Source of the DNA: Methanomicrobium sp. W14
GTDB taxonomy: Archaea; Halobacteriota; Methanomicrobia; Methanomicrobiales; Methanomicrobiaceae
Direction: 5' to 3'
Assembly: GCF_017875315.1 (NCBI RefSeq)
Contig: NZ_JAGGMM010000004.1
Span: 1 to 64,000, forward strand
DNA: 64,000 bases
A model generated the notes under the pieces. It saw nothing but the letters and a program-made list of their open reading frames with translations, did not search any database and was not told the DNA's origin. Shown here piece after piece: positions 12,359 through 14,640 of this stretch (positions within the stretch are counted from its first letter, which is position 1; each line of letters begins with the position of its first letter). A program made the translations under genes and the position numbers.

Positions 12359-12432
12359 GGGCCCGTGGTCTAGCCGGTTATGACGTCGCCTTGACATGGC
12401 GGAGGTCGTGAGTTCGAATCTCACCGAGCCCA
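12359..12432 (+). tRNA. tRNA-Val (anticodon GAC)
   Basis: A 74-nt cloverleaf. Acceptor GGGCCCG pairs with CGAGCCC (one C-A mismatch at the fifth pair). The D arm contains AGCCGGTTA, the anticodon stem TCGCC/GGCGG encloses the loop TTGACAT, giving anticodon GAC for valine codons GUC/GUU, and the T arm is GTGAG-TTCGAAT-CTCAC. The discriminator is A and CCA is not encoded (the sequence continues CTTTTC). No intron is visible. A pyrimidine/T-rich segment directly after it may stop transcription. Confidence 0.95.
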
Positions 12433-12688
12433 CTTTTCTTCATTGTTTTGTAAAATAAAAACTAATTCATTGTCTGTTTTATTCCTAAGCTCATTTTGGG
12501 CAGTATCAAGAAATCGGGATGCATCTAAACCTTTATTCTTGATATACTCGTAATTTTCAGGGTTAATTGTAATATGCAATTTTTTTCTAATCCTGTGTAT
12601 TTTCGTTGTTTTCGCTTTTTCTCTCTTTCACATTTCATATTGAGAAAAATAAAAAGATGTATTTTCTTAGAATGAGATTTTTTTGTTC

Positions 12689-13171
12689 ATGGGGAAAAAA
12701 TTAATTCTTTTGGTAGTGGTGATTATAGTCATAACCTGTAGTTTTTCAGGCTGTATGAAATTAAGTAAATTAACATCTCTTTTAAAATTTGGAAAAGTTA
12801 CAGACCATGTTTTAGAATCTAGTGATTCAGAGCCATATTCTGATTCAGACACATTACGTGAGAATTACATGCAAACTTATAATTTAAACGGAGAAAAGGG
12901 AACTGTATTCAATATTCATTATGAAGGAAATGCACCTGTTGATCTAATGATTCTTGATCCTGAAAACAACAGAATATACAACCGTTTACTGGATGACCCT
13001 GATTATCATCATAGTATCAATGGTTATCTGTACTTGAATAGGAGAGAAGCAAACATCGAATTCACGCAACCAGACGATCAGCAGTATTATTTTATTATTG
13101 ACAATATAGATTTGCTTACCAACGGTGCAAATTCTGGCAGATCTGTAAAGTATACATTGACTATTTCTTAA
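12689..13171 (+). CDS. Small lipoprotein with PPC/GOLD-like domain
   Basis: About 160 residues with a lipoprotein signal: hydrophobic LILLVVVIIVITCSF and lipobox FSGC (Cys near residue 22). The mature part has beta-strands typical of small archaeal extracytoplasmic domains (FNIHYEGNAPVDLMILDP in the middle and YYFIIDNIDLLTNGANSG...YTLTIS at the end), resembling PPC or GOLD-like folds. ATG at 12689 is chosen; TTG at 12683 is possible. There is no good ribosome binding site, and a TATA-like AAAAATAAAAAG about 30-40 nt upstream suggests a leaderless or near-leaderless mRNA. T-runs follow the stop codon. Function unknown. Confidence 0.7.
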   Translation: MGKKLILLVVVIIVITCSFSGCMKLSKLTSLLKFGKVTDHVLESSDSEPYSDSDTLRENYMQTYNLNGEKGTVFNIHYEGNAPVDLMILDPENNRIYNRLLDDPDYHHSINGYLYLNRREANIEFTQPDDQQYYFIIDNIDLLTNGANSGRSVKYTLTIS

Positions 13172-13240
13172 TCTTTTTTTTATTTTTCTTTCACGCCGCA
13201 CGGACAAGACGTTTAAGATAACTGTTTAAATTTTATGTGG

Positions 13241-13355
13241 GGTTTAGCCTTTGTCTCAAATTACAGAAATTAAAAGTGCTGAAGTGTCTTGGTTTCACGG
13301 ACAAAGGCAGGCAGAAAGATTTTCTGGCCGGAAACGGAAAGTATGGAGCTAAACC
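13241..13355 (+). ncRNA. Candidate structured RNA with nested stems
   Basis: An outer stem GGTTTAGC (13241-13248) pairs with GCTAAACC (13348-13355); inside it GCCTTTGTC (13247-13255) pairs with GACAAAGGC (13300-13308). Between the two right-hand arms are a 6-bp hairpin CAGAAA/TTTCTG (13312-13326) and CCG-GAAA-CGG (13328-13337), a GNRA-tetraloop hairpin. A TATA-like GTTTAAGATAA at about 13211 lies some 27 nt before the first stem base, as expected for a transcript starting there. I recognise no known family. The strand is inferred from that promoter. Confidence 0.5.
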
Positions 13356-13580
13356 GGCACAGGATAACAGGAATGCACGAAAAAGTATTGATTATCAAAT
13401 AAAACCAGTTATGTTCTCGGATCGGTTCTTGATGAAATTAGCAGGTCTTATACAAATTTCTTGATTTTGGAAAGGAATTCTTATCTAAACTCTTCATTGT
13501 CTAAGGCCTGCCATAATGCCAGTTTAATAGACTATAAACTGAAAGGTTTCAGGAGGATTACTTGCGCTGTCAAAAGAGGA

Positions 13581-13755
13581 GTTAACAGGTTCAGGTATAG
13601 GGGAATTTAAATGGTAGTTAAATAAGAGCTATGAATGATAACAGACAGTCAAGCAGTTCATGAAAATTATATATTCTCTATGCCTGATACAGTGTTTCTC
13701 CAGGTTAAATATAAATGGTAAAATGCCGGAAAAAATCAAGATATATAATTAACAA
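13581..13755. repeat. Structured tandem element, copy 1
   Basis: Bounded by GTTAAC (13581) and ATTAACAAA. A long-range stem pairs 13591-13604 (TCAGGTATAGGGGA) with 13674-13687 (TTCTCTATGCCTGA) by 14 pairs including three G-U pairs. The 69-nt loop holds ATGAATGATAACAG and AGTTCATGA, and an ATAAATGG motif follows the stem by 24 nt. This is the most diverged of the three copies in the loop; it lacks the inner CCTGG/CCAGG hairpin of copy 2. Could be an RNA gene, a mobile-element remnant or a protein-binding array. Confidence 0.6.
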
Positions 13756-13845
13756 ATGTGGTGTATATTGTAGATGCATAGGCACATTTATGTTAATCCG
13801 GACGTATTGACACCAACGTATGAAACTTTTTGCACGGAAAAAGAA

Positions 13846-14027
13846 GTTAGCAAAGTTTCAGGTATAGGGAATTGGAACGGGGGTTTTCCTAATGATTATG
13901 AATGATGACCTGGAACCAGGCAGTTCATGAAAAATTATATGTTTTCCCTACGCCTGATACAATATCTCTCTTAATTAAACATAAAAGGTAAGGTAGGGGA
14001 AAAATAGTATAAAATAAGGTTAACAAA
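13846..14027. repeat. Structured tandem element, copy 2
   Basis: Bounded by GTTAGCAAA and GTTAACAAA. The outer stem pairs 13858-13871 (TCAGGTATAGGGAA) with 13944-13957 (TTCCCTACGCCTGA): 14 positions with one mismatch. Inside the 72-nt loop are a GGAAC...GTTTTCC hairpin, the segment TAATGATTATGAATGATGAC shared exactly with copy 3, and a CCTGG-AA-CCAGG hairpin. ATAAAAGG follows the stem by 24 nt. Confidence 0.65.
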
Positions 14028-14158
14028 ATGAGATGCAGGGAAAAGTTGTTGTACCGGAGTTTATATGAATAATTGATCTTTCAGTCAGTTGCTTTTCAGA
14101 GAAGCCGGGTCAGGAGCTGTAAATGTTCCGGTAAGATTCCGCCGGGATTGAAAAAGTG

Positions 14159-14349
14159 GTTAACAACGTTTAGGTACAGGGAATTGAAACGGGGGTTTCC
14201 TAATGATTATGAATGATGACCTGAAATCCAGGGACAGTCCATGAAAATTACTTGTTTCCCTGTACCTGCTATAATGTTTCCCGGACATTAATATAAAAGG
14301 ACGGTTTATTTGAAAGATGGTTTAAACGAAGTTGAAAGGAGTTAACAAA
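14159..14349. repeat. Structured tandem element, copy 3
   Basis: Bounded by GTTAACAAC and GTTAACAAA. The outer stem pairs 14171-14183 (TAGGTACAGGGAA) with 14256-14268 (TTCCCTGTACCTG). Relative to copies 1 and 2 one U-A pair has become C-G by changes on both sides, so pairing is conserved. The loop (72 nt) has a GAAAC...GTTTC hairpin, the shared segment around TATGAATGATGACCTG and a CCTG...CAGG hairpin. ATAAAAGG follows the stem by 25 nt. Confidence 0.65.
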
Positions 14350-14474
14350 ATTCTTCACAGGTGAAAAAGCTGCTGCTATAATGAACAAATGAAAAAGGGG
14401 GGGATTTTTTTCAGTTCAGCCAAAAAATCAGTTTTCATAATACGGATTTTTAGTATTGACTGTTAGCAGTTGCT

Positions 14475-14500
14475 GCAGTTAACCGCAGTTAACCGCAGTT
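14475..14500. repeat. Short tandem repeat GCAGTTAACC
   Basis: Two exact 10-bp units (14475-14484, 14485-14494) followed by a partial third (GCAGTT). Each full unit contains the GTTAAC hexamer that also bounds the three upstream elements. Confidence 0.7.
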
Positions 14501-14640
14501 ATTTTTTGCCGGTCAGGCAACGCGTGGTGCAGTATTTATGGCATTAAAACTATCCGGTTGAAAGTGTATTTTTCTAAAAAGACTAATGTCTGAAAAGGCT
14601 CAAAACTATACACTCAGACTGCCGGACGGGAAAATGAAAA

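Follow-up and report, generated by a model that had tools for sequence, protein, structure and literature searches.

Results

The DNA analysed here (the window) consists of the first 64,000 nt of contig NZ_JAGGMM010000004.1 of Methanomicrobium sp. W14. Downstream of a tRNA-Val(GAC) gene (12359-12433) it contains an array of three diverged units, c1 to c3, in each of which a closing stem of 13-14 bp encloses a 70-nt loop. The stem arms lie at 13592-13605 and 13674-13686 in c1, at 13859-13871 and 13944-13956 in c2, and at 14171-14183 and 14256-14268 in c3. An earlier note, made from the sequence alone, had described three tandem diverged copies with an outer stem of 13 or 14 bp and a loop of about 70 nt, and all of this was found where the note had placed it. 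When copies were compared with each other by blastn, c2 and c3 were 80% identical over 155 nt (E 1e-29) and c1 and c2 71% over 168 nt (E 6e-15), so the units are clear homologues. On the plus strand the motif ATAAA(A/T)GG, previously given as 24-25 nt after the stem, follows it at 24 nt in c1, c2, and c3. The GTTAAC-like unit bounds of the note form a real cluster, as 6 of the 11 GTTAAC sites in the window fall within 13500-14500. At 14470-14505 (plus strand), upstream of a glycosyltransferase gene, a direct repeat (CGCAGTTAACCGCAGTTAAC...) contains two more GTTAAC sites and has a T-run behind it.

Read on the minus strand, the shared motif becomes CC(A/T)TTTAT(A/G)T, which is the form of an archaeal TATA box, and it stands exactly 21 nt ahead of the stem in all three copies. 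The boxes, all on the minus strand, are CCATTTATAT at 13709-13718 (c1), CCTTTTATGT at 13979-13988 (c2), and CCTTTTATAT at 14291-14300 (c3). The pattern CCWTTTATR occurs just six times on the two strands of the window, and three of these sites are the boxes of c1 to c3. Archaeal TATA boxes are located about 25 nt upstream of the transcription start, and an oligo-T run is the usual archaeal transcription stop. For Methanolobus psychrophilus, the reported distance between promoter elements and start sites is about 19-22 nt (PMC5378194). The spacing between box and stem matches this promoter-start distance, so the first bases of the stem are the predicted transcript start; each unit thus appears to have its own TATA promoter at the distance usual for an archaeal intergenic small RNA (sRNA) gene. 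At the other end, the alignment places GTTAAC and the terminator-like CTCCTCTTTT at 13570-13586 in c1, GCTAAC and TTCTTTTTCC at 13836-13852 in c2, and GTTAAC and CACTTTTTC at 14150-14164 in c3, all on the minus strand. The predicted sRNAs extend on this strand over 13572-13686 (copy 1, start at about 13686 and end in the T-run at about 13572-13575; cmsearch, 136.5 bits), 13839-13956 (copy 2, 150 bits), and 14151-14268 (copy 3, 144 bits). A further edge is found upstream of each promoter: ATTAAC at 13748-13753 (c1) and GTTAAC at 14019-14024 (c2), both 36 nt before the CC of the TATA box, and GTTAAC at 14341-14346 (c3), 46 nt before it. On inspection, the plus strand had neither a TATA box ahead of c2 and c3 nor a T-run past the stems of c1 to c3. 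The RNA gene family that the earlier note had offered as one possibility remains the best reading, but the strand as drawn there has to be reversed: the TATA box precedes the stem on the minus strand, and a putative terminator lies at the former 5' boundary.

A fourth, divergent member is present in the same genome (G000:C1:834243-834439). With covariance model R1, which represents the transcribed part and leaves the TATA box out, G000:C1:834268-834439 was the sole extra locus in the genome at E <1 (28.8 bits, E 0.02). A TATA box, CCTTTTATA, stands at the expected place even though the model excluded it, and since CCWTTTATR is so rare in the window, a chance match at this position is very unlikely. 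The sequence CCTTTTATAC lies 22 nt ahead of the stem, which reads GCGGTATAGGGA/TTCCTTATACCGC and is followed by TTTGTTAACTCCTTTTC with GTTAAC and a T-run. All four members therefore have (G/C)TTAAC and then a T-run at the 3' edge of the minus strand (of the CTTTT type in c1 to c3), a putative oligo-T stop past the RNA as expected of an archaeal intergenic sRNA gene. With the four members aligned at the TATA box, identity is 85% across the 10-nt box CC[A/T]TTTATR, 25-40% (background) in the 90 nt upstream, and 33% directly past the box, climbing to 72% in a block close before the stem. Such a profile, with a conserved box, a poorly conserved spacer, and a conserved stretch before the stem, is that of a TATA box with its start region. 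The stem of the fourth copy is retained with compensatory changes. Its loop is longer and unrelated to those of c1 to c3; no other feature of the family is as unusual as this exchange. Opposite the loop, the other strand carries a fragment, FKPESIPVLIAFGVGMFVGYS, that resembles a small membrane peptide and is similar to a neighbouring 50-amino-acid membrane-peptide ORF; the fragment has no in-frame start codon. Model R3 recovered the fourth copy within its own locus (28.4 bits) and missed it in a whole-genome run.

In Markov shuffles, an equally good 13-bp stem was obtained in 0 of 150 cases for c1, 17 of 150 for c2, and 1 of 150 for c3. The change from U-A to C-G that had been reported between copies is present, but it is a single double change, and the covariation among the three copies was equalled in 170 of 500 shuffles and is not significant. 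For all four members, 92% of the stem cells are paired and three pairs show double changes, which was matched in 10 of 500 shuffles; slid-register controls gave 28-47% paired. Covariation in the four members is suggestive, and it hangs on one divergent sequence. Selection for structure, as claimed from the three copies, is accordingly weak in c1 to c3 and becomes suggestive only when the fourth copy is included. In model R2, a few stem pairs were one column out of register, which was corrected in R3, and to align the fourth copy one T was dropped from a T-run outside its stem. Folding of the minus strand gave z values of -0.9 (c1), -3.2 (c2), and -2.4 (c3), with c1 and c3 folding relatively better on the plus strand; the RNA of the fourth copy (z -0.4) folds no better than shuffles. 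In the minimum-energy folds of c2 and c3, the closing stem leads into an open bubble that carries a small hairpin on its 3' side, and an end hairpin completes the structure. Summed over the four members, the minus strand has three G-U pairs and the plus strand four, so the alternation of G-U and G-C, which had been taken as a structural signal, favours neither. As these counts are nearly equal and the folding differences small, pairing alone leaves the strand undecided. Archaeal bulge-helix-bulge splicing was considered and rejected, as the stem has no bulges.

The loop sequence is CAUUCAUAAUCAUUAGGAAA(A)CCCCCG in c2 and c3 and CAUAACAUAACUCCUUAAAUCACCUC in the fourth member. In these three loops, immediately ahead of the 3' stem arm, CAU anti-start stretches adjoin an anti-Shine-Dalgarno stretch that is C-rich or reads CACCUC, a combination that suggests masking of a ribosome-binding site (RBS). 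The genome contains no further site with three or fewer mismatches to the anti-start region of the loop, and duplex prediction against the 58 genes of the window gave weak, unspecific RBS pairing and no specific target, so RBS masking is a mechanism that we infer. ORFs of 10-13 codons occur in the loops on both strands, and the copies differ in them almost only by non-synonymous substitutions; in the plus-strand mini-ORF all codon changes between copies are non-synonymous. Since the P2 hairpin forms an ATGAA/TTCAT palindrome, the minus strand has mini-ORFs of the same length. Judged from these substitutions, the loop ORFs have no visible coding constraint on either strand, as would be expected of an sRNA gene.

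The array and the fourth member both belong to islands next to tRNA-Val genes, the latter to an island adjoining tRNA-Val(TAC), and a third island of the genome adjoins tRNA-Val(CAC). By sequence comparison, each island opens with the tRNA and a conserved block of about 200 downstream bases (plus strand 12359-12640 in the window; L073:9183-9456; L081:6252-6529). The block includes a small basic gene that points toward the tRNA, looks ribbon-helix-helix-like by eye, and matched no Pfam family; its copy in the window (12433-12640, minus strand) is apparently frameshifted near the start. Also common to all three islands is repeat A, a noncoding sequence of about 200 nt at 13170-13387 (plus strand; also delimited as 13190-13395), which is 88-92% identical among the islands of this genome and 71% identical to that of the sister genus, where it lies beside tRNA-Val(TAC) in two genomes. 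Its other loci are L073:7442-7627, L081:7917-8132, L095, and L096. Repeat A has a TTTAAATTT box about 25 nt ahead of a nearly invariant GCCTTTGTC...GACAAAGGC hairpin and no match in Rfam, and its sequence would possibly fit another unrecognised RNA gene. Block 2, at the island edge (13514-13589, plus strand), ends in GTTAACAGG and matches L081:6582-6654 in the tRNA-Val(CAC) island (blastn, 76%, E 2e-8); GTTAAC edges occur at this island edge in L081 and L098 as well. The order differs in the window, where repeat A precedes the edge block and the array directly follows that block. The sister genus has the same island plan (L097 and L098), and no integrase is visible near the ends. The cargo varies and includes a Hypoth_Ymh protein (PF09509, E 3e-32; L098:9726-10451, minus strand) and toxin-antitoxin-like pairs; RelE/YafQ-like and VapB-like pairs adjoin repeat A in L073, L097, and L098. 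With such content, the tRNA-Val islands may serve as hot spots for defence or toxin-antitoxin systems. A search of viral contigs for an island protein gave no match. The element itself is absent from the third island (L081) and from the islands of the sister genus. A 62-amino-acid ORF of L081 was rejected as a relative of the units; it encodes a small protein of other gene contexts.

Outside this genome, covariance models gave no convincing member in the other 27 of 28 genomes of the family or in the other 231 of 232 genomes of the order. Filtering was stricter in the order-wide search, which failed to return even the known fourth copy and may therefore have overlooked distant members. Weak covariance matches in the family and order were rejected, as they lack the stem or the T-run. 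Among the 4227 Rfam families, only tRNA was found in the window at the gathering threshold and nothing credible at relaxed E values up to 10, which bears out, as far as Rfam is concerned, the statement that no known family fits. No member was found in phages and plasmids, sequence patterns gave no match in viral contigs, and a search of 85,000 genomes with a degenerate DNA pattern gave 56 scattered matches, which were in unrelated taxa and were set aside as chance. The GTTAAC edge pattern is about as frequent in relatives as its reversed control. In 60 relatives, blastn gave two matches only, each covering no more than a single hairpin piece of copy 2 (L009:1501-1540 and L010:1501-1527; 27-39 nt, 85-89%), both antisense to apparently the same protein-coding gene; these are post hoc and may be chance. 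The earlier note had proposed a covariance search of the order and had held that a lack of homologues elsewhere would count against it: a divergent copy was found in the same genome and none in the 231 others, so the lack is nearly complete outside this genome but not within it. The sRNA162 of Methanosarcina mazei has homologues in two close relatives only (PMC3510493), and by this analogy a narrow distribution would be normal for archaeal sRNAs.

Discussion

The units are probably tandem archaeal sRNA genes that lie on the minus strand and form a small, lineage-specific family, new but of a known kind. The fuller reading, in which c1 to c3 are such genes with their own promoters and terminators, an RBS-masking loop, and a place among the cargo of a tRNA-Val island, has in our judgement an even chance of being correct. 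Each unit would be transcribed leftward from its own TATA promoter to the oligo-T terminator. The RNA produced would be about 115-120 nt long, its 5' and 3' ends paired as the 13-14 bp stem; the loop so enclosed would contain a second hairpin (AUGAA...UUCAU), accompanied in two copies by a small hairpin with a C-rich loop. The stem may shield the RNA ends, and the loop may pair with the RBS of a target mRNA through its anti-Shine-Dalgarno (C-rich or CACCUC) and anti-start (CAU) stretches and block translation. Sibling copies could raise the dose or vary the target. As island cargo, the fourth copy would have retained the frame and acquired another loop.

It is also conceivable, although we consider it unlikely, that the units act, or once acted, as DNA in the tRNA-Val islands, as modules of their boundary or cargo that are edged by GTTAAC and were duplicated by recombination; the hairpin would then be used in this process or left over from it, and any RNA would be incidental. 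Such modules would explain why GTTAAC edges are found both at the two unit ends and at the island edge, why every member sits in an island with shared repeats, and why loops are exchangeable; they would not be expected to keep a TATA box and start region around an unconserved spacer, and no integrase, transposase, or target duplications were seen. The descent from a mobile element that the earlier note had considered gains only indirect support, from the islands. A MITE or small transposon was rejected, as the TATA box, GTTAAC, and T-run are conserved between copies outside the stem and there is no duplication at the stem ends. Rather improbable is a plus-strand RNA or mRNA leader with short ORFs (MNDDLEPGSS etc.) behind a G-rich Shine-Dalgarno-like run. 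An ORF of 10-13 codons does follow GGGGG or GGTAG in each unit, G-U pairs and energies lean slightly to the plus strand in c1 and c3, and L081 has a real 62-amino-acid gene at the matching place past block 2. However, the missing plus-strand TATA boxes of c2 and c3, the missing T-runs, the purely non-synonymous changes, and the equally long mini-ORFs of the minus strand argue against it.

The tandem arrangement of units in which a predicted RNA faces a short ORF also recalls type I toxin-antitoxin pairs such as Sib/ibs of E. coli, in which case the minus-strand RNA would be the antisense antitoxin to a plus-strand short peptide gene. The membrane-peptide-like fragment opposite the fourth copy and its resemblance to the adjoining ORF would fit, but this fragment lacks a start codon in frame and the peptides of c1 to c3 are hydrophilic, 10-13 amino acids long, and unconserved, which makes such pairs distinctly improbable. 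We give still less weight to a protein-binding structural RNA, for example a 6S-like RNA polymerase decoy. The folds of c2 and c3 have the appropriate stem, bubble, and end hairpin, yet the RNA is multicopy in a single genome, its loop is not conserved in the fourth member, and Rfam gave no match at all.

Returning to the sRNA genes, it would be a rather improbable extension that the family is a stem-framed RNA cassette carried by the tRNA-Val islands, with promoter, stem, and terminator fixed and the loop swapped, including a stretch antisense to neighbouring gene-like sequence. If true, the cassette would be a natural re-targetable antisense-RNA scaffold in archaea. To our knowledge, targets are known for few archaeal sRNAs, and tandem sibling sRNAs have hardly been reported from methanogens. 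Being compact, with clear promoters, one exchanged loop, and a location in tRNA-Val islands, the family would make it possible to test directly whether archaeal islands bring regulatory RNAs of their own.

Among bacteria, Qrr, LhrC, and OmrA/B are sibling sRNAs that are often arranged in tandem; every copy has its own promoter and terminator as well as conserved unpaired segments that bind an RBS. The present units are similar in being several near-copies with a promoter and terminator each, and differ in the archaeal promoter, the oligo-T stop, the one replaced loop, and in having no known link to Hfq. Sib/ibs of E. coli consists of tandem units of about 140 nt in which a short ORF lies opposite an RNA gene, an arrangement like that found here; our short ORFs are hydrophilic and unconserved, whereas a conserved hydrophobic peptide characterizes that system. 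With 6S RNA the units share the outline of closing stem, bubble, and end hairpin, but they have no covariance match to the 6S family and occur as several copies in one genome. A close parallel in description is M. mazei sRNA162, which masks an RBS by a single-stranded linker and has a homologous sibling, sRNA171 (PMC3510493); the two represent trans- and cis-acting sRNAs of archaea. Like the predicted RNAs, it is an intergenic methanogen sRNA with its own TATA/BRE promoter and terminator, with stem-loops around an unpaired target region and with homologues in near relatives only (PMC3510493); it differs in having three stem-loops and a linker (about 191 nt), where the present family has one closing stem.
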